Notes under the pieces: generated by a model
Seen by the model: the letters and a program-made list of their open reading frames with translations, nothing else
Told to the model about the DNA's origin: nothing
The model's database searches: none
In this document: positions 10,428 through 19,805 of the stretch, one piece after another
Position numbering within the stretch: the stretch's first letter is position 1
Layout of the letters: the number at the start of each line of letters is the position of its first letter
Translations under genes and position numbers: made by a program
Assembly: GCA_903857165.1 (NCBI GenBank)
Contig: CAIODU010000314.1
Location: 1-39,077 of the forward strand
DNA length: 39,077 nucleotides
DNA from: an uncultured Methylococcaceae bacterium
GTDB taxonomy: Bacteria; Pseudomonadota; Gammaproteobacteria; Methylococcales; Methylococcaceae
Reading direction: 5' to 3'

Positions 10428-11783
10428 ATGCCGCCACTCAAGCTCTTTGTCAGCCACAGTTCCAGATTGGATGATGTGGATCATCACTACTCCGAGGACG
10501 ATCACAATTGGCAGTTGCTTGAAACCATCTGTCAAGCGATTCGCGATAAATATGTAGACCAGATTGACGTTTTGGTGGACAAAGACCGACTGAAACCAAG
10601 CGACGACTGGAATCACCGCCTGAATCTTTGGCTACAGGAATGCCATGCTGCCATCATTCTGTTCTCCAAACGCGCCATGGAAAATTCCGCTTGGGTGGCC
10701 AAAGAAGCCACCATCCTCAGTTGGCGGGCCGAATTAAACCCGAAGTTCAAACTCTTCCCCGTGATGCTGAAAGGGGAAACCACCCCGGACGACTTGAAAA
10801 GGGTTTGCTCCGGCGTGTTGCAGATCGACCGATTCCAGTGTGTTCATGATGTGCAAGAAGCCAAGGACATACTCGACGGCATCGCCGAAGCGCTGGATGC
10901 ACTGAAAGACTTGGCGAAACTTCCCCTGACACCGATGGAAATCCTGCAAGAGGGCATCGCGAAGATCCTCGACCAATGCACCGAAGCAAGCTTGCGCTTG
11001 GCATTGGAGGACATTTGCGGTCGCCAACCCGAAACCTTGGCGGATAAGAAAGCCTGTGCAAACCGGTTGGCCCAATTGTTTTTAGAAACCAAGCCTGACA
11101 ACCCCACCCATTGTTTTACTACGTTTCAACAGGGCCTAGGCCCGCTGAAACCCCTGCCCTGTCCGCAAGAAGCCATTGATCTGCTTAAGCTGGTTCGTTC
11201 GCTGTGGGTAGAGCCTGACGATGCCGCTGCTTTGCGTCTGGCGAAAATCCACCGCCATCATGTGGCGCTGAACGGCCACTGTATCTCAGCGAACGGCCCG
11301 GATAATAAAACTCGCTGTTACACCTTGGAGAGGTATATCGAACGCGCTTGGCCGTTGAGCAAGGACAAATTCCTCATCGTGAGCTTGACCGGAGCCAAAC
11401 CCTTGGAGCAGATTCAACAAGAGATTCGGGACAACTGCTTGGGACTATTGCCGCCTTGCCCCTTGCCAAACGCAGACCAACTCAGCGATCAAGCAGTAAA
11501 TGAAGATGTTAGAACCATCATCGTGCTAATACCGGCCTATAAAGACAAAGGTGGATTGCCCGATCCTGACAGTTTGAAGAAATTACTGGAATTATTCGCG
11601 ATTTATAACAAAATCATGTTGGTTTTCGATTTGAGAGACGAACATCCAGAATTGCCACCTACCGTGAAATACGCCCAGCATAAATTAAGGGATAAAAACG
11701 CCATGAAAGCTTTTCTTGATTGCGAAAACTTAGCCTATCGTCGTGAAGGCGCGGTTAAAACCTACCTGAATGATCTTTATTGA
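10428..11783 (+). CDS. TIR-domain protein, putative effector of a conflict system
   Basis: A 451-residue protein. Residues ~4-150 form a TIR domain: it opens 'LKLFVSHSS', has 'VDVLVDKDRLKPSDDW'-like strand/loop order, 'AAIILFSKRAMENSAW', and Glu93 in 'AWVAKEATIL', the position of the catalytic glutamate in NAD-cleaving TIRs. Residues ~160-310 are helical ('MEILQEGIAKILDQC'), and the C-terminal part is unassigned. Activity would be NAD+ hydrolysis or signalling when triggered; this is inferred from the family. It is the first gene of a four-gene operon, 9 bp before the MoxR gene. The AGAAGG upstream of the ATG is close to the start, so initiation may be weak. Confidence 0.8.
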   Translation: MPPLKLFVSHSSRLDDVDHHYSEDDHNWQLLETICQAIRDKYVDQIDVLVDKDRLKPSDDWNHRLNLWLQECHAAIILFSKRAMENSAWVAKEATILSWRAELNPKFKLFPVMLKGETTPDDLKRVCSGVLQIDRFQCVHDVQEAKDILDGIAEALDALKDLAKLPLTPMEILQEGIAKILDQCTEASLRLALEDICGRQPETLADKKACANRLAQLFLETKPDNPTHCFTTFQQGLGPLKPLPCPQEAIDLLKLVRSLWVEPDDAAALRLAKIHRHHVALNGHCISANGPDNKTRCYTLERYIERAWPLSKDKFLIVSLTGAKPLEQIQQEIRDNCLGLLPPCPLPNADQLSDQAVNEDVRTIIVLIPAYKDKGGLPDPDSLKKLLELFAIYNKIMLVFDLRDEHPELPPTVKYAQHKLRDKNAMKAFLDCENLAYRREGAVKTYLNDLY

Positions 11784-11792
11784 GCCAGGTCC

Positions 11793-12755
11793 ATGAACAA
11801 ACTCTACCAACCCAAACACTTAAAAATACCTTCAGCAGACTGGATATTGGAAGCTTCCGAAAACAACCAACCTTATGTTTTCAATGAAACAATAGCCATT
11901 GTCGTGGATGTGGCTTTAGCCACCCACCGGCCCTTGCTGGTATCGGGCAATCCAGGTTGCGGCAAGAGCCGGCTGGCGGATGCCATCGCCGCCGTGCAAG
12001 GCTGGAGTCTGCTGTCTATGACCATGACCTCGCGCACCCGCTTGGAATCGCTGACGGCGGAGGTGGATCAATTGCGTCGCCTCCATGATGCCCAAGCTAG
12101 ACCAGAAAATTCCGCGTTGAAGCCTGATGCCTGCTATCTGAAACCCGGCTTATTTTGGTGGGCCTTCCAGCCAGAAACGGCAAGATTTAGGGGGATGGAC
12201 CCGTCGGAAGCGGAAACATATCAAGCACATCTGCCCTATCGGGGTATTCAGGGCAAAGAAAAAAGCCATGCCGTGCTGTTGATTGACGAAATCGACAAGG
12301 CCGAGCCAGACCTTCCAAATGACTTGCTGGAGCCTTTGGATCAGAAGCAATTCGATCTGCCCGATGGTTTTCAGGTTCATGACAAAACCTATATAAAACT
12401 GTCTGAAAACATCCAATTGCTCACAGTCATCACGACCAATGGAGAGCGCGAATTGCCGCAAGCCTTTCTCCGGCGCTGTGTGTTGCTGCGACTGCCTGAT
12501 CCCGAACCGGACAAGCTGGTCGAGATTGCCCTGAAACATTTCCCCAAAGGCAATCAAGCCCGAATTAAAGCCATTGCCGACAAATTTCCCGATTTTCGTG
12601 TGGAAGCCAAGTCGCAAAGTCGCAGACCGCCCGGAATTAGCGAATTCTTGGATGCCATCAACGCCTGTGAACAATGTGGAATTGAAATCAGTGAAAAGGA
12701 TGATTCGGTTTGGAAAAAGATTGAAAATGCCGTTTTGATCAAGGGCAAGACTTGA
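11793..12755 (+). CDS. MoxR-type AAA+ ATPase
   Basis: A 320-residue AAA+ protein. Walker A is 'SGNPGCGKSRLADAIA' (residues ~51-66), Walker B 'VLLIDEIDKA' (~161-170), followed by a sensor strand 'LLTVITTNGERELP' and arginine-finger region 'AFLRRCVLLRLPDP'. This order matches MoxR/dynein-related ATPases that partner with vWA-domain proteins. It likely works as an oligomeric NTP-dependent switch or chaperone controlling the adjacent vWA and TIR proteins. Its TGA overlaps the next gene's ATG (TGATG), so the two are translationally coupled. Confidence 0.85.
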   Translation: MNKLYQPKHLKIPSADWILEASENNQPYVFNETIAIVVDVALATHRPLLVSGNPGCGKSRLADAIAAVQGWSLLSMTMTSRTRLESLTAEVDQLRRLHDAQARPENSALKPDACYLKPGLFWWAFQPETARFRGMDPSEAETYQAHLPYRGIQGKEKSHAVLLIDEIDKAEPDLPNDLLEPLDQKQFDLPDGFQVHDKTYIKLSENIQLLTVITTNGERELPQAFLRRCVLLRLPDPEPDKLVEIALKHFPKGNQARIKAIADKFPDFRVEAKSQSRRPPGISEFLDAINACEQCGIEISEKDDSVWKKIENAVLIKGKT

Positions 12756-13738
12756 TGGAAAAGATGCGCGGCGAAATCCACTTGGGCGATTTTGCGCAAG
12801 CATTGGCTTCGTTGCCTTGGCAAAACGACGACCAAGCGCAAGCCATTGCCGCTTGTTTGGGTTTTGGTCTCGCGCCAAGCCTGCCGCCTAAGCCCAACGA
12901 AGGAATTTACGACCGGCATTCTTATAGCCAGCCAACCCCGTACAAGCCCAAGCTGCCCACCCCGCCGCCAGTGTTCATCCCACCCGTGCTGGAGCCTCCG
13001 CCAACACTACCGCCGACTAAGCTGGAAAGCCAAGTGGACAGTTGGCAAACGCTTGCCCCTCCAATTGAAAAATCACCCGATTGGTTGGGTGAAAAACACG
13101 AATCCGTTCAAACTATCAACGAAACCAAAATAGCCCGTCTTTCCTTGTTCCCGGAACAGACCCACCGCCACATCCTTGCCGCCGCCTTGGCGACCCGGCG
13201 CATAGGCCACGACATCGACCTCCCAAAACTCATGGCCTCGCTATGTCGCCGCGAGGTGCTGACCCAATTGCCGTGCCGCCCGGAAGCCAGTTTGGAGCGT
13301 GGTTGCGACTTGCTGCTGGACTACAGCCCTAGCATGGTACCGTTTTGGGAAGATTTGAACGGCTTGATCGAACAAGTCGGACGAGTGGTGGGTGCTGCCA
13401 ACGTGCGAGTATTCGGCTTCGATACCCGACCGACCGAAGCCAAACGCTGGACAGGGGATGGCAAACTGCAAGGCTGGCAGGTGCAGAAGCGCCCCGTGCT
13501 GGTGGCGACAGATTTTGGCATTAGCGGTTTGCAATGCCGTGCAGAGTCGGACCCGGCATGGCATGGACTGATTGCCGACTGCACGAAAGACGGCAGTCCC
13601 TTGGTGATTCTGATCCCCTGGCCGGAAGACCGTTGGCCCAAAGGTTTGGGTGGCTATCCCAAACTGGCCCATTGGAGTCCGCGCACCACGGCGGCGATGG
13701 TGAAAAGGCAAATCGGTCCCGGACATTGGATGAGATAG
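12755..13738 (+). CDS. vWA (MIDAS) domain protein partnered with MoxR
   Basis: About 327 residues. The N-terminal ~45 residues are helical, then a Pro-rich linker (residues ~47-92, 'PPPVFIPPVLEPPPTLPP') leads into a C-terminal domain. There 'LLLDYSPSMVPFW' gives the D-x-S-x-S metal-ion-dependent adhesion site (about D189, S191, S193), and 'FDTRPTEA' and 'LVILIPWPEDRWP' form later strands. Together with the upstream MoxR ATPase it forms a MoxR-vWA pair; in related systems this pair gates an effector in response to a sensor. The start overlaps the MoxR stop by one base. It resembles proteins annotated as SAV_2336-related, but I could not run that comparison. Confidence 0.75.
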   Translation: MEKMRGEIHLGDFAQALASLPWQNDDQAQAIAACLGFGLAPSLPPKPNEGIYDRHSYSQPTPYKPKLPTPPPVFIPPVLEPPPTLPPTKLESQVDSWQTLAPPIEKSPDWLGEKHESVQTINETKIARLSLFPEQTHRHILAAALATRRIGHDIDLPKLMASLCRREVLTQLPCRPEASLERGCDLLLDYSPSMVPFWEDLNGLIEQVGRVVGAANVRVFGFDTRPTEAKRWTGDGKLQGWQVQKRPVLVATDFGISGLQCRAESDPAWHGLIADCTKDGSPLVILIPWPEDRWPKGLGGYPKLAHWSPRTTAAMVKRQIGPGHWMR

Positions 13739-13801
13739 AAAGGAGCGTCAAAGCTTGCTTTGACTTTGGGCAGAGATAACTTAAACACTAAACAAAATCT
13801 C

Positions 13802-16432
13802 ATGACTTGGCGCGATACCCATCGTTTTGAAAAGCGCATCCTGGAGGATGTCAAGGCATCATGGCCGAAGGAGATGATTGCTTTGGCCCGCTGTCTGGCC
13901 TTGGCCCCGCGCATTGAACCCTTATTGCTGCGCAATGCCCGCTTGCATTTTGTGCAGGAAGCCCAAGCCGAGGCGGAATCCCTGCTTTGGTTTAGCCCCT
14001 TGGTTGCCGCCCGCAGTACCCGCGAAATCGTATTCCATCTGGGTGTGTCGAAAGCCTTGGCGCAAGAATGCAGCGATGAACAGCGTGACGAGCATTGGCG
14101 GTTCACCCAGCGGCACACCCGCCATTGGAGCGAGGAAGACCGCTTGGAACGCGACCTGCGCTATTATGCCCTGAAGGACGACCCACAAGAGGTTCGGCTT
14201 AAACTACGGGAAATCCTTCGCCGTATCCATGACGAGTCGGAGGAATCTCGCATCGCTTTGTCCCGGTTGCTGAAGCGCACGATGCCCGTGATTGCACCCT
14301 ATGGAGGAGATGACCTTGAAGCCAAGTGGTTGATCAAATTCGCCGCGCTGGCGCTGGGCGATGCCGGTGACTGGATGAATCCCGGACTGCCGCAAGCCTT
14401 GCCCGAATGGCTGGAAGCCAAACTACCCAAATTGCCCCCTCACATTCCCAAAGCTGAATTGGGCGTGGAAACCCGCACGGATGGCCGCAATCAAGTGCTG
14501 CATTTCATTGCCGCCGACCAAGTCGAGCCCAATAACCGCATTCCTTTGCCCAGCCCCTTGCCCGCCCAACTGCATGTCGCCACGGATGGGCCGGGGGCTT
14601 GGCATATTGTCAACTTGGGCACTCGTATTGTCATTGATCCGCCTAGCCAACACCTGCGCTTGACGACCTTGGATGGCCGACAATGCTTGTTGCGGACGGA
14701 GACTGCCCTCACCCCAACACCCCTCTCAGAGAGAGAGGGGCTTGATTCAACGCGAGTGTCTCCATTGTGGCTGGCACACACCAAGGCCGACAAAGACCAA
14801 GCGCAAGCCATCGCGGACTGGCTCAAAGCACAAGGCGTGGATGCAGAATTGTTTGAGGAGTCTGCTTCGTCGGCCAGTCCGTCCAGCGCCGAACCCAAAC
14901 CTACCAAAGTGGTGCGGCTGTGGACCCAAGCCGCCCATCGTTACTGGGCCGGGCGTCCCGCGCTGGAAGCCGAGGCAGTGGCCGAAGGCTTATTACTGCT
15001 CATCGAGGACGTGGACCTGCCCCAGTTGGGTACTGGGCTGGGCCATGTGCTGGATTGGCGCGACTGGCGTAGCCTGGACGCATCGCCCCAAGCCCGGAAA
15101 CTGCTGGACAACCTACGCCGCTGGCGCGATGGTGGCGAGATCGAGCCTGAATCCTTGTCCAAGACCGACTCGGTTTCCAAAACCGAGTCGGTCTCAGGTG
15201 ACGCGCAGGGAGGGGGCGAATTTTCCCCCGAAATCCAATCCCTGTTGGCCGAGATCGACAACCCTGACACCCCACCGCCCCGCCGTCTGGAAATTGGCGA
15301 CTGCCTCGCCGAGTTGGGCGACCCGCGCCCCGGTGTCGGCGTGGTTGAAATTGAAGTGCCAGTTCAGTCTTCTGATGCTCGTTCCCAAGCTCCCGCTTGG
15401 GAACGCGATCCGTCGGCTGTAGGGGCGAATTCATTCGCCTTTGAAGATTCTTCATCTGGGCGAATGAATTCACCCCTACAAGAGGGTTCTTCGATAAAGC
15501 AGGGTGAGGATGCCTTCCCCCCCCAAATCCAAGCCCTGCTCGACGAAATCAACAACCCCGCCACCGAGCCGCCGCGAAGGCTGGAAATCGGCGATGAACT
15601 GGATAAGCTGGGCGACCCGCGCCGGGGCGTGGGGCTGGATGCCAACGGCTTGCCTGACATCGACTGGGTGGAAATCCCCGGCGGGCCGTTCATCTACCAA
15701 AACGGCGAGACCCGTGAATTGCCGACCTATTGGATTTCCCGTTACCCCGTCACCAACCGGCAATTTCAAGCGTTTATTGATGCGGGCGGCTACCAAAAGC
15801 CCGCTGCCAAGCGCGGCAAGGCAAAGGCGCTACTGGACAAATTGACTGGCCATAGCGAGGAAAACCCCGATTGGTGGAAAGATTTGCAACAGCCCCAACC
15901 GGCAAAATCCACCTGGCCGCAAGGCAACCGCCCGCGCACCGATGTCGATTGGTACGAAGCCGTCGCCTTCACCCGCTGGCTGTCGGCGGCCTTGGGCCTG
16001 CCAGCCAAAACCATCCAACTGCCCTTCGAGATGGAATGGGAGAAGGCGGCGCGGGGCGAGCATGGGTTGATCTACCCTTGGGGCAACGAATATCAATCTG
16101 GATTTGCCAATATCGACGAAAAGTCTGGAAACGCTGGCAAATGGTATCTGGAGCAGACAACAGCCGTTGGATTGTATCCTCATGGCCGTTCGCCTTACGA
16201 GGTTGAAGACATGGCCGGTACGGTGTGGGAATGGTGTTTAAACAAATATGAAAAGCCGGATATGACCAAGGCCGACACCAGCGGCGACTCCCGGGTTTTG
16301 CGCGGCGGGTCTTGGTTCTACTATCTAGGCCTCGCGCGCGCCGTCTTCCGCAGCTGGGGCGATCCCGACGCTCGTGGCTACTTCGGGGGTTTCCGGGTGT
16401 TGTCTTCGGTCCCCATTCACGCTGTCCGCTGA
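13802..16432 (+). CDS. DGR variable protein 1: multidomain protein with C-terminal FGE/C-type-lectin fold
   Basis: About 876 residues from the ATG at 13802; a TTG at 13760 is an alternative start nearer the AAAGGAG at 13739. The N-terminal ~300 residues are helical and unassigned. Two copies of a ~40-residue motif (around 474-512 and 572-612, '..EIQSLLAEIDNPDTPPPRRLEIGD..') precede a sulfatase-modifying-factor/FGE-like domain (~617-876: 'DIDWVEIPGGPF', 'YPVTNRQFQAFI', 'DMAGTVWEW', 'RGGSW'). The final variable segment is VR1. The catalytic Cys pair of true FGE is not evident after RGGSW, so I infer a binding rather than enzymatic fold. It is the last gene of the TIR-MoxR-vWA operon. Linkers contain in-frame dispersed repeats. 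Confidence 0.85.
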   Translation: MTWRDTHRFEKRILEDVKASWPKEMIALARCLALAPRIEPLLLRNARLHFVQEAQAEAESLLWFSPLVAARSTREIVFHLGVSKALAQECSDEQRDEHWRFTQRHTRHWSEEDRLERDLRYYALKDDPQEVRLKLREILRRIHDESEESRIALSRLLKRTMPVIAPYGGDDLEAKWLIKFAALALGDAGDWMNPGLPQALPEWLEAKLPKLPPHIPKAELGVETRTDGRNQVLHFIAADQVEPNNRIPLPSPLPAQLHVATDGPGAWHIVNLGTRIVIDPPSQHLRLTTLDGRQCLLRTETALTPTPLSEREGLDSTRVSPLWLAHTKADKDQAQAIADWLKAQGVDAELFEESASSASPSSAEPKPTKVVRLWTQAAHRYWAGRPALEAEAVAEGLLLLIEDVDLPQLGTGLGHVLDWRDWRSLDASPQARKLLDNLRRWRDGGEIEPESLSKTDSVSKTESVSGDAQGGGEFSPEIQSLLAEIDNPDTPPPRRLEIGDCLAELGDPRPGVGVVEIEVPVQSSDARSQAPAWERDPSAVGANSFAFEDSSSGRMNSPLQEGSSIKQGEDAFPPQIQALLDEINNPATEPPRRLEIGDELDKLGDPRRGVGLDANGLPDIDWVEIPGGPFIYQNGETRELPTYWISRYPVTNRQFQAFIDAGGYQKPAAKRGKAKALLDKLTGHSEENPDWWKDLQQPQPAKSTWPQGNRPRTDVDWYEAVAFTRWLSAALGLPAKTIQLPFEMEWEKAARGEHGLIYPWGNEYQSGFANIDEKSGNAGKWYLEQTTAVGLYPHGRSPYEVEDMAGTVWEWCLNKYEKPDMTKADTSGDSRVLRGGSWFYYLGLARAVFRSWGDPDARGYFGGFRVLSSVPIHAVR
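14706..14744. repeat. Dispersed palindrome embedded in the variable-protein gene
   Basis: CCCTCACCCCAACACCCCTC followed by a GAGAGAGAGGGG arm forms a hairpin-capable unit. In frame it encodes 'LTPTPLSEREGL', a peptide known to arise when this widespread bacterial intergenic repeat is translated. It lies between the helical N-terminal half and the following domain of VP1. Confidence 0.65.
15380..15479. repeat. Two further dispersed palindromes embedded in the VP1 linker
   Basis: The first palindrome, CGTTCCCAAGCTCC-CGCTTGGGAACG (15380-15405), belongs to a family with relatives at about 16921-17110 and 35491-35670. The second is an inverted pair TAGGGGCGAATTCATTCGCC / GGGCGAATGAATTCACCCC (15420-15479), related to 549-571. 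Both are read through in frame and encode the linker between the two copies of the 40-residue motif. Confidence 0.7.
16288..16412 (+). repeat. DGR variable repeat VR1 (3' end of VP1 gene)
   Basis: These 125 bp align without gaps to the template repeat at 16607-16731. By hand count the template has 30 adenines in the core, and 23 of them are changed here (to T, G or C). No C, G or T of the template is changed. The changes cluster in the codons after 'RGGSW' and before 'GFRVLSS', altering surface-loop residues of the C-type-lectin-like fold. The invariant 3' block GGTTTCCGGGTGTTGTCTTC acts as the likely initiation-of-homing region. Confidence 0.95.
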
Positions 16433-16448
16433 TTGGCTGTCCGCTGCA

Positions 16449-16479
16449 CCGCCGCGCCAGCGGCGGTCGAATTTTTTTT
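16449..16479 (+). terminator. GC hairpin plus T-run after VP1; also probable DGR target-recognition hairpin
   Basis: CCGCCGC-GCCA-GCGGCGG (7-bp stem, 4-nt loop) is followed by eight T residues from 16472, a classical intrinsic terminator. The identical block follows VR2 on the other strand (18868-18899) but is absent after the TR. DGRs often need a small hairpin just downstream of the VR for target recognition, so a double role is possible. Confidence 0.75.
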
Positions 16480-16483
16480 CAAC

Positions 16484-16507
16484 GTAGGTCGGCAACCCTT
16501 TGCCGAC
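16484..16507. repeat. Dispersed repeat GTAGGTCGGCAACCC...
   Basis: This 24-bp unit (GTAGGTCGGCAACCCTTTGC, then CGAC) recurs exactly at 18812-18835 and in degenerate inverse form at 18741-18764. All three lie in the non-coding parts of the DGR locus. Its core CGGCAACCCTTTGCCG is palindromic, so it is probably a REP-like sequence. Confidence 0.6.
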
Positions 16508-16606: not shown

Positions 16607-16731
16607 CTCCCGGGTTTTGCGCGGCGGGTCTTGGATCAACAATCAAGACAACGCGCGCGCCGACAACCGCAACAGGAACAATCCCGACAATCGTAACAAC
16701 AACAGGGGTTTCCGGGTGTTGTCTTCGGTCC
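16607..16731 (+). repeat. DGR template repeat (TR)
   Basis: A non-coding 125-bp copy of the variable protein 3' end, rich in AAC/AAT codons. It shares the 5' block CTCCCGGGTTTTGCGCGGCG and the 3' block ending TTGTCTTCGGTCC with both variable repeats. The core has 30 adenines; VR1 differs at 23 and VR2 at 19 of them, and nowhere else. Codons are mainly AAY plus AGG, GAC and ATC, which cannot become stop codons by adenine substitution. It lies on the same strand as VP1 and the reverse transcriptase. Its transcript would be the template for mutagenic reverse transcription. Confidence 0.95.
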
Positions 16732-16760
16732 ACACGGCATTGGCTTGGCATTGCTTGGGG

Positions 16761-17121: not shown

Positions 17122-17469
17122 TCATGCTATTTTCAGCCAGCCGCCAAGCAGTCGGCCAATTTCGGCAACCAGCCGGCTAACATGTTCGTATTGACCATTG
17201 TTCAGCCACTGCCATCGGTGTGCCAGGCGCAAATACAGGCGTACCGTATCCAAGTGCGCATCGCACTCCAACAATAGTTGTCGGCGCTGCGCCCCGCGTT
17301 GCTTGCGGGCAAGAAACAATTTTTCCTGAAAATTCAACACCGCATCCCCCAAATGCCGGGTGACATTGTAACGGTAAGCCTTGGGGAATGTTTCGGTTTT
17401 GGGCAATAGCCAGTCCAGCAGGTCATATGTGCGTGTCAACAATACTAAGTTTTCTGTGGTTTCCGCCAT
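17122..17469 (-). CDS. avd: DGR accessory protein, Avd-like four-helix bundle
   Basis: A 115-residue basic, all-helical protein. '[36 protein letters not shown]' spans helices 1-2 in the manner of Avd/S23-like bundles (fragments '[14 protein letters not shown]' and '[14 protein letters not shown]'), followed by Arg-rich '[13 protein letters not shown]' and two further helices. Avd proteins form a pentameric barrel that binds the reverse transcriptase and template RNA. Unusually for DGRs, it faces away from the RT gene, and the two ATG codons share the CATG at 17467-17470. A TR-to-RT transcript would therefore be antisense to it. Confidence 0.8.
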
Positions 17470-18556
17470 GTGTCCGACTCCTTACAGTCTATACCAACAA
17501 ATTTATGCCTTCGACAACCTGTTTATTGCCTGGCAAAAAGCCGCCAATGGCAAGCGCTCAGGCCCCATGGTGGCACGTTTTGAAGATGGCGTGGCTGACC
17601 ATCTGCTCGAACTTCAAGCCGAATTGGCCACCGGTAGCTATCGCCCCGGCCCCTATAAGCACTTTACCATCGAAGAGCCCAAACGGCGTTTGATCAGCGC
17701 CGCGCCGTTCCGCGACCGGGTGGTTCACCATGCCTTATGCAATCTGATCGAACCCCTGTTCGAGTCACGTTTCATTCCTGACAGTTACGCCAACCGCTTG
17801 GGTAAAGGCACCCACCGGGCGGTCGCCCGTTGCCAAGCGTTTTCCCGGTCTTATCCCTATGTGCTTAGGCTGGATATCGTCAAGCATTTTCCGTCCATTG
17901 ACCATCAAATCCTGTCCGATAATCTAAGCCGCGTCGTCGCCGACGGGCAGACCTTGGCGTTGATCGGGAAAATCCTCGCCAGCGGCGATGGCATTGCGGA
18001 TCAGGATTACCGTCCGCCGTTGTTCAAAGGGGATGATTTGCTGGCTTGGTGTCGGCCCCGTGGCTTGCCCATCGGCAATCTCACCTCGCAATTCTGGTCA
18101 AATTGCCATTTGCACCCGCTTGACCTTTTCGTCAAGCGCGAACTTGGCTGCAAGGCTTATCTGCGCTATGTGGACGACTTTGCCTTGTTTGCCGACAACA
18201 AAACCACGTTGGGGGAATGGAGGCAAAGGATTATCGAACGCTTGGCCGCGATGCGCTTGTGTGTCCATGAAAGCAAGGCACAAGTGTTGCCGGTGCGTTG
18301 CGGCATCCCTTGGCTGGGGTTTGTAGTTTACCCCACCCATCGCCGCGTGAAAGCCCGCAAAGTGGTGGAGGCGACACGGTGCCTAGGCGAGCGTTATGAT
18401 GCTTGGCGGTGCGGCAGCATCAGCTTTGGCGAATTTGATGCCAGTGTGCAGGGTTGGATCAATCATGTGCGTTACGCGGACACCTGGGGGCTGCGCACTC
18501 ATGTGCTGAAAAAATTTGTTTGGTCCAAATGTTCTTGGGCGTTTAATGTAAATTGA
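17468..18556 (+). CDS. DGR reverse transcriptase
   Basis: A 362-residue reverse transcriptase started at the ATG at 17468 ('[19 protein letters not shown]'); DGR RTs typically begin this way. Conserved motifs are '[15 protein letters not shown]' (first catalytic Asp, D136), '[14 protein letters not shown]' (~199-212; the SQ in motif 4 is characteristic of DGR RTs rather than group II introns) and '[11 protein letters not shown]' with YVDD at 234-237. A short thumb follows; there is no maturase or endonuclease domain. With Avd it would copy the TR RNA, misincorporating at adenines. The C-terminal codons run into a perfect 35-bp palindrome. Confidence 0.95.
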
Positions 18557-18579
18557 AGTTTCAAACTTCAATTTACATT
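18545..18579. repeat. Perfect 35-bp palindrome spanning the RT stop codon
   Basis: Arms AATGTAAATTGAAGTTT (18545-18561) and AAACTTCAATTTACATT (18563-18579) flank a single C. The TGA stop of the RT gene lies inside the left arm. It is AT-rich without a following T-run. It could end transcription from both sides (RT and VP2 converge here) or be a protein or recombination site. Confidence 0.7.
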
Positions 18580-18740
18580 GTTGAAGGGTAAGGGCAACTC
18601 ATCACTTGGTGTTATCCGCTGTAGCAACGGGCCGTGTCGGCTAAAATAATGGGAACGGAGTGGATTTGGCTGACTCCTAAACGTTAATTTTGAAGTGATT
18701 GGTTGAATAACTGATGTTACGCGCAGCCACCAAAACCGTT

Positions 18741-18835
18741 GGCGGCAAAGGGTTGCCGCCCTACGATCTAGGGGTCTACGGTCTGGGGGGGCTGGAATGG
18801 CCATAACCGCCGTAGGTCGGCAACCCTTTGCCGAC
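18741..18835. repeat. Inverted pair of 24-bp dispersed repeats between RT and VP2
   Basis: GGCGGCAAAGGGTTGCCGCC (18741-18760, then CTAC) and GTAGGTCGGCAACCCTTTGC (18812-18831, then CGAC) face each other and match the repeat at 16484-16507. The rest of the RT-VP2 spacer (18580-18867) shows no gene. Confidence 0.55.
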
Positions 18836-18867: not shown

Positions 18868-18899
18868 AAAAAAAAATTCGACCGCCGCTGGCGCGGCGG
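18868..18899 (-). terminator. Hairpin/T-run after VP2, identical to the one after VP1
   Basis: On the minus strand CCGCCGC-GCCA-GCGGCGG (18882-18899) precedes a run of nine T residues. The whole block from VR2 through the hairpin matches that after VR1, whereas the TR lacks it. It serves as terminator and probably marks the homing target. Confidence 0.75.
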
Positions 18900-18915
18900 T
18901 GCAGCGGACAGCCAA

Positions 18916-19674
18916 TCAGCGGACAGCGTGAATGGGGACCGAAGACAACACCCGGAAACCCCAGCCGAAGTGACGAGAGTCGGGAACGTTCCCGTAGCGG
19001 TAGTCGGCGCGCGCGAAGCCTTGATAGTAGAGCCAAGACCCGCCGCGCAAAACCCGGGAGTCGCCGCTGATGTCGGCCTCTGTCACCTCCGGCTTGTCGT
19101 ATTTGTTCAGACACCACTCCCACACCGTCCCCGCCATGTCTTCAGCTTGGTAAGGCGATTTGCCATGGGGATACAGGCCCACCGCCGTGGTCTGTTGCAG
19201 ATACCACGGCCCTGCTTTCTGCTCGGTTTCGTCGATATTGGCAAACCCGGAGCGGTATTCATTCCCCCAAGGATAAATCAACCCTTGCTCGCCCCGCGCC
19301 GCCTTCTCCCATTCCTGTTCGGTGGGCAGGCGGATGGTATTTTCTTCCAAACCCAACACCGCCGACAGCCAGCGGGTGAAGGCGACGGCTTCGTACCAAT
19401 CGACATTGGTGCACGGACGGTTGGTTTGCGGCCAGCGGGAGGCTTGCGGTTCCGGCTTTTTCAAATCCCGCCACCAATGTTCGTCTTGATAGCCGCCGTC
19501 GTCGATGAAGGTTTTGAATTGTTGGTTGGTGATGGGGTATTTAGCCATCCAATAGGCATCCAGATGCACGGTGGTTGGTTGTTTGCCTTCGCCGTACACG
19601 AACGGGCCTGCCGGGATTTCGATCCAACTGATGTCGGGGACGCGCAGGGTGCGGGTTTGCGGGATGGGCTGCAT
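18916..19674 (-). CDS. DGR variable protein 2: stand-alone FGE/C-type-lectin fold protein
   Basis: About 252 residues from the ATG at 19672-19674 (MQPIPQTRTLRVPD); an upstream TTG at 19725 is possible. It consists almost only of the sulfatase-modifying-factor/FGE-like domain: 'DISWIEIPAGPFVYGEG', 'KYPITNQQFKTFIDDGGY', 'WYEAVAFTRWLSAVLG', 'LPTEQEWEKAARGEQG', 'AEDMAGTVWEWCLNKY', 'RGGSW'. It is closely similar to the C-terminal domain of VP1, indicating duplication. The last 42 codons are VR2. Lacking the N-terminal part of VP1, it may act as a diversified soluble or partner sensor. No signal peptide is seen. Confidence 0.9.
   Translation of the reverse strand: MQPIPQTRTLRVPDISWIEIPAGPFVYGEGKQPTTVHLDAYWMAKYPITNQQFKTFIDDGGYQDEHWWRDLKKPEPQASRWPQTNRPCTNVDWYEAVAFTRWLSAVLGLEENTIRLPTEQEWEKAARGEQGLIYPWGNEYRSGFANIDETEQKAGPWYLQQTTAVGLYPHGKSPYQAEDMAGTVWEWCLNKYDKPEVTEADISGDSRVLRGGSWLYYQGFARADYRYGNVPDSRHFGWGFRVLSSVPIHAVR
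18936..19060 (-). repeat. DGR variable repeat VR2 (3' end of VP2 gene)
   Basis: On the minus strand these 125 bp align gaplessly to the TR. By hand count 19 of 30 template adenines are replaced and no other base differs. The pattern of substitutions differs from VR1 (for example AAC template codons give CAC, TTC, GGC here versus GGC, TAC, TTC in VR1), so the two targets were diversified independently. Confidence 0.95.
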
Positions 19675-19805
19675 GGGTGTCGGGCCTTGGTCTGGGTTTT
19701 GACGGCGAGTGAAAAAGCATGGCAACCCTTATAGGATGCGTCTGACGACATTTAACCAGAATCCAACCCTTTTTTGGGATGTTGTGCGACAGCGCAAATT
19801 TTTTC

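Follow-up and report, generated by a model that had tools for sequence, protein, structure and literature searches.

A lectin-domain protein as predicted second, inverted target of one DGR beside a TIR-MoxR-vWA module in a methanotroph

Introduction

In DGRs, adenine-mutagenised cDNA of a template repeat (TR) replaces a variable repeat (VR) that lies beside a hairpin, and this replacement is independent of orientation. For BPP-1, an experiment demonstrated that targets are served in either orientation, and a GC-rich stem-loop after the VR was found to be needed for efficient homing; the phage elements compared in that work have stems of 7–10 bp and loops of 4 nt (Guo 2011, PMC3240598). In the genome of Pseudogulbenkiania sp. 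NH8B, DiGReF noted a TR with VRs in both orientations (Schillinger 2012, PMC3521204). A second target consisting of the CLec domain only is likewise already known, and the target pair seen here has been described beside MoxR (Dore 2024, PMC10907252). MoxR-vWA ternary conflict systems form a further related group (Kaur 2020, PMC7159879).

Here we analyse a stretch of 39,077 nt (the window) from contig C314. The assembly comes from an uncultured Methylococcaceae bacterium and comprises 4.9 Mb. The host is a methane-oxidising bacterium near Candidatus Methylumidiphilus, a genus within Methylococcales. The original prediction, made from the letters of the window, had assigned to one of its genes, VP2, the role of a second DGR target that is inverted and consists of a lectin-like domain alone.

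Results and Discussion

Layout of the locus

From left to right the locus comprises genes for a TIR-domain protein, a MoxR-like ATPase and a vWA-like protein, VP1 with VR1, the TR, avd, the gene for the reverse transcriptase (RT), and VP2 with VR2; avd and VP2 are encoded by the minus strand and the RT by the plus strand. The TIR-domain protein (10428–11783, +; Pfam TIR_2, E 2.3e-9) lies upstream of the MoxR-like AAA ATPase (11793–12755, +; AAA_5, E 1.3e-13). The next protein (12752–13738, +) is a probable vWA-like partner with the DxSxS-like motif LLLDYSPSM; its match to VWA_CoxE is below the Pfam cut-off (E 0.0019), as is that of its orthologue in the sister species G369 (E 0.00034). An AlphaFold2 model of this protein, computed without a real alignment, was unusable (pLDDT 38). 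The MoxR-vWA gene order is conserved in G369, G404, G371, G196 and G374, the last being a congener that also has a DGR contig. PADLOC gave weak AAA matches for MoxR only, and none of its defence models matched VP1 or VP2.

VP1 (13760–16432, +) is the long target, with 890 aa and a C-terminal domain of the formylglycine-generating-enzyme (FGE) type according to Pfam; its N-terminal extension matched no Pfam family. MoxR, a probable vWA-like protein, TIR and a DGR-diversified FGS domain are common to the window and the systems of Kaur 2020 (PMC7159879). The two differ in that no VMAP-C or iSTAND component was detected at the window by Pfam matches of the VP1, TIR or vWA-like proteins, and in that the FGS domain resides on VP1 and VP2 and is not fused to the vWA protein.

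The TR (16607–16734, +) has 128 nt with 32 adenines. It is followed by the accessory gene avd (17122–17469, −; bAvd PF22296, E 2.5e-19) and the RT gene (17468–18556, +; RVT_1, E 2.6e-17; motifs PIGNLTSQ and YVDD). Both genes diverge head to head, and their start codons share the CATG at 17467–17470. The open frame of VP2 (18916–19674, −) encodes 252 aa and runs opposite to VP1, as originally stated. An antisense frame across VP2 (18928–19734) matches no Pfam family and was taken as a chance occurrence.

Other repeats are found nearby. On either side of the DGR, at 16484–16507 and 18812–18835, lies a REP/MITE-like palindrome of 24 nt, GTAGGTCGGCAACCCTTTGCCGAC, which has 68 exact copies genome-wide. 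At its 3' end the RT gene carries a long A+T-rich palindrome (18545–18580), and a similar one is located near VP2 in the sister-species locus L040 (about 283–310).

One template and two variable repeats

Over 128 nt, VR2 (18933–19060, −) differs from the TR at 20 of 32 adenines and at 0 of 96 non-adenine sites. The corresponding values for VR1 (16288–16415, +) are 24 of 32 and 0 of 96. With random mismatch positions, such an adenine-only placement would occur by chance with a probability of 1.9e-15 for VR2 and 1.7e-19 for VR1. Hence the TR is common to VP1 and VP2, and the VR assigned to VP2 was correctly recognised. The two VRs differ from each other at 18 of the 32 adenine sites and at none of the 96 others; 18 non-synonymous and 0 synonymous differences separate them. 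Since only 9 of the 17 adenines altered in both carry the same base, the substitution patterns are largely independent, in agreement with the original prediction. By computation, the 19 adenine-bearing codons cannot yield a stop and allow approximately 4e17 proteins.

Adenine-only differences between TR and VRs, a DGR-type RT, Avd, hairpins after the VRs and a C-type-lectin target are all present. As judged from the sequence, VP2 is thus a genuine second, inverted, lectin-only target of one DGR.

A search of the 4.9-Mb genome, which had been suggested together with the prediction, retrieved no third VR of this TR. The best extra match, on contig C113, has mismatches at non-adenines and was rejected; it belongs to a second DGR-like locus of the same genome (L009, C113:29000–39000), which has avd and a separate long FGE target. 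This target is an FGE protein of 984 aa with a STAND-like N-terminal half, and only about 100 residues are left of the truncated RT. In another genome, an FGE gene (L146, 237–1001; G370:C600) encodes a protein only 40% identical to VP2, but its VR and 3' end are 82% identical to the TR of the window, as if a VR cassette had moved between diverged targets.

Hairpins after the targets

VP2 had been credited with its own terminator. The element in question (18881–18900, −; ACCGCCGC-GCCA-GCGGCGGT) is a hairpin followed by a T tract, and an identical hairpin follows VR1 (16448–16467, +). Each has an 8-bp GC stem and the loop GCCA and lies 32 nt downstream of its VR; after the TR a comparable hairpin is absent. 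When the 65-nt stretch was shuffled 20000 times, such a hairpin arose in only 7 cases. Across the collected loci, a stem of at least 7 bp was present at 46 of 75 VRs vs 12 of 69 TRs (Fisher p 8e-8, which is a guide only because the loci are related). From the stop codon onward, the flanks of VP1 and VP2 are identical at 50 of 51 nt; the domain body before the VR is 61–91% identical in 25-codon blocks.

The BPP-1 DGR (Guo 2011, PMC3240598) is alike in having a hairpin with a GC-rich stem and a 4-nt loop after the VR, and its target is usable in either orientation, like the two-strand targets of the window. In contrast, the loop GCCA falls outside the consensus GRNA, which comes from phage elements, and the BPP-1 target is a phage tail protein rather than a cellular FGE-type protein. 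The agreement with BPP-1, the enrichment at VRs over TRs and the finding that the hairpins are truncated or gone in the two sister species without a detected RT make it most likely that the element after VP2 is a homing hairpin. Consequently, the reading as a terminator alone is not retained, although the T8 tract beyond the hairpin may additionally terminate transcription.

The VP2 protein

PF03781 (FGE-sulfatase; E 2.9e-48, residues 17–243) is the sole Pfam match of VP2, so that the description as a lectin-like domain alone holds. The AlphaFold2 model (pLDDT 88.2, pTM 0.89) resembles EgtB, ToxD, FGE and the DGR protein TvpA in Foldseek, with E values of 5.4e-12 for TvpA (2y3c) and about 1e-13 for FGE. 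VR2 spans the C-terminal RGGSW...GFRV segment, at the ligand site of the C-type-lectin fold. Hydropathy revealed neither a signal peptide nor a membrane segment (highest 19-residue value 0.83); therefore "soluble", as had been suggested for VP2, would mean cytosolic.

Orientation of the second target

The TR matches VR1 on the same strand and VR2 on the opposite one. The proposal that one template can service both orientations is thus borne out here and has been known since 2011/2012. The NH8B DGR (PMC3521204) is alike in that a single TR has VRs in both orientations; it has four VRs, with the inverted ones further off, whereas in the window the inverted target directly follows the RT. Target orientation is not treated in the main text of Dore 2024 (PMC10907252).

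What is new is that the RT clade with inverted avd repeatedly has a second target downstream of the RT and inverted to it. Inverted avd marks the RT clade of the window. The comparison covered loci whose RT is no less than 48% identical and whose sequence continues for 1.5 kb downstream. An inverted FGE gene was found just after the RT in 17 of 27 loci with inverted avd vs 0 of 42 in which avd and RT point the same way (16 of 26 vs 0 of 42 if L123, where the RT alone is flipped, is excluded). The loci fall into related groups, so that the counts reflect a single conserved architecture and not a series of independent events. Elsewhere, slot 2 is mostly occupied by NACHT or nSTAND1 receptors that have a C-terminal FGE domain and frequently also TIR or EAD domains. 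The lectin-only protein of the window is the exception in slot 2.

Age of the duplication

Inverted repeats of 338, 252 and 71 nt connect VP1 and VP2 at 87%, 82% and 73% identity. In protein trees built without the VR, VP1 of three species grouped together (99/98), as did VP2 of the same species (91/91, not starred), and a clade of VP1 and VP2 from the window genome was rejected (p-AU 1e-4). These orthologue groupings, together with the rejected clade, place the duplication before the split of the three species, so that VP2 and the lectin domain of VP1 are old paralogues; a recent duplication is rejected by the tree. The comparison of both domains, proposed earlier for dating, has thereby given an answer. 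That VP2 duplicates just the C-terminal domain of VP1 is correct as homology, but not as a recent copy, considering the identity before the VR.

Outside the VR, dN/dS is 0.13–0.19 for VP2 orthologues, and it is 0.24–0.27 for the VP1 lectin domain. Two species of the genus have intact VP2 orthologues of about 251–253 codons, and an intact one with 62–64% identity occurs in a different family of the order. Frameshifts in VP2 of relatives were looked for and not found. VP2 is kept intact under purifying selection outside its VR.

Sister species

The sister species G371 and G369 retain VP2 (L040, L041) and VP1 (L042, L043). No RT of the window kind was found in either genome, the closest RTs being 54% and 43% identical, and none was found beside the VP1 and VP2 targets. 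VR1 and VR2 disagree at 10 (G371) and 8 (G369) of 96 non-adenine sites, compared with 0 of 96 in the window. Both species appear to have lost the DGR core, i.e. RT, avd, TR and hairpins. In G369 the loss could instead be an assembly gap, since its contigs end at the targets. Joining the G371 contigs C275 and C101 via a common 20-base end was not adopted; the motif is also repeated in G369, and the joint is no more than a hint.

In both species the frame of VP2 is open, and 3 nt separate its start from a sulfotransferase-family gene upstream. Its neighbours vary between species, and queries with phaC, p19849 and p20323 gave no synteny beside VP2 in G371 or G369. In G369, VP1 (L043, 2233–3381) contains one in-frame stop and a longer linker, and its VP2 is intact; in G371, another gene lies upstream of VP1 in place of vWA and MoxR. 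Since VP2 is intact where VP1 is stopped or detached from MoxR and vWA, it may act without VP1.

Possible partnership with the TIR-MoxR-vWA-VP1 module

G196, from another family, has an RT 67% identical to that of the window. Its TR matches a lectin-only gene of 245 aa in slot 1 with 19 adenine and 0 other mismatches. With 17 adenine mismatches and 1 other, it also matches a VP1-type target that lies in a TIR-MoxR-vWA-VP1 cluster on a different contig. One TR thus appears to serve two contigs in this genome (L045, L159), with the lectin-only gene in slot 1, not slot 2. G404, a member of a different family of the order, carries a TIR-MoxR-vWA-VP1 cluster and, on a separate contig, a lectin-only gene. 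Among 369 genomes of the class, the VP1 N-terminal family was found only in the window genome and G196, and the same two genomes were the only ones with short lectin-only frames of the VP2 lineage; the co-occurrence of lectin-only gene and VP1 rests on five genomes, and the searches started from the window locus.

Clade 5A DGRs of multicellular bacteria, e.g. DGR 8 of Thiohalocapsa PB-PSB1 (Dore 2024, PMC10907252), are among the closest to the window. Unlike in clade 5A loci, the vWA-like domain of the window is encoded by a separate gene. The nearest relatives of the window RT mostly diversify STAND NTPase receptors, which the same study ascribes to clade 5D.

Possible role of VP2

The reading of VP2 as both a second target and a recognition subunit of the module is the one we favour, and we consider it reasonably probable. 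Adenine-mutagenised cDNA of the TR would replace VR2 next to its hairpin regardless of orientation. The resulting VP2 would bind ligands as a free protein in the cytosol and would supply the TIR-MoxR-vWA-VP1 conflict module with a further recognition surface that varies independently of the first, presumably as a separate sensor or adaptor subunit and neither as an enzyme nor as an effector.

VP2 might also be a free decoy or neutralising binder, which absorbs molecules of an invader without signalling through the MoxR module. This is conceivable, if rather unlikely: the protein consists of the lectin domain without an effector domain, it is kept where VP1 is broken or detached, it is linked to a sulfotransferase gene and not to MoxR in two sister species, and neutralising roles have been proposed for FGS domains (Kaur 2020, PMC7159879). 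However, the lectin-only target of G196 has its TR in common with a MoxR-linked target, and the lectin-only gene of the VP2 lineage tracks the VP1 family in the 369 genomes.

A by-product, i.e. a silent inverted copy that stores sequence or decays, is already disfavoured and very improbable. VP2 does copy only part of VP1, slot 2 holds long receptors in relatives, and no clear sigma-70 promoter was found for VP2, but the frames are intact in three other species with the low dN/dS given above, and in the sister species the gene directly trails another one. An enzyme of the formylglycine-generating type in which a DGR repeat lies by coincidence, as the Pfam family and fold match of VP2 could suggest, is hardly credible, because VR2 occupies the place of the FGE active-site segment and contains no cysteine opposite SYMCHRSYC of human FGE, so that the active-site cysteine pair is missing.

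Conclusions

With this locus, a methanotroph has a lectin-only DGR target next to a MoxR-type conflict system, and the role of CLec-only targets becomes testable. The locus also offers a natural before-and-after comparison: in sister species that appear to have lost the retroelement, both variable proteins persist, but the hairpins and the match to the template do not. This comparison separates DNA features retained for homing from protein features retained for function. More tentatively, and with considerable doubt on our part, the lectin-only target may be a conserved, separately encoded recognition subunit of the TIR-MoxR-vWA-VP1 system, so that one template would give rise to a split receptor with two binding surfaces that vary independently. 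If this is true, the sister lineages would have shed the mutator and retained the variant that had been selected, comparable to a fixed antibody.
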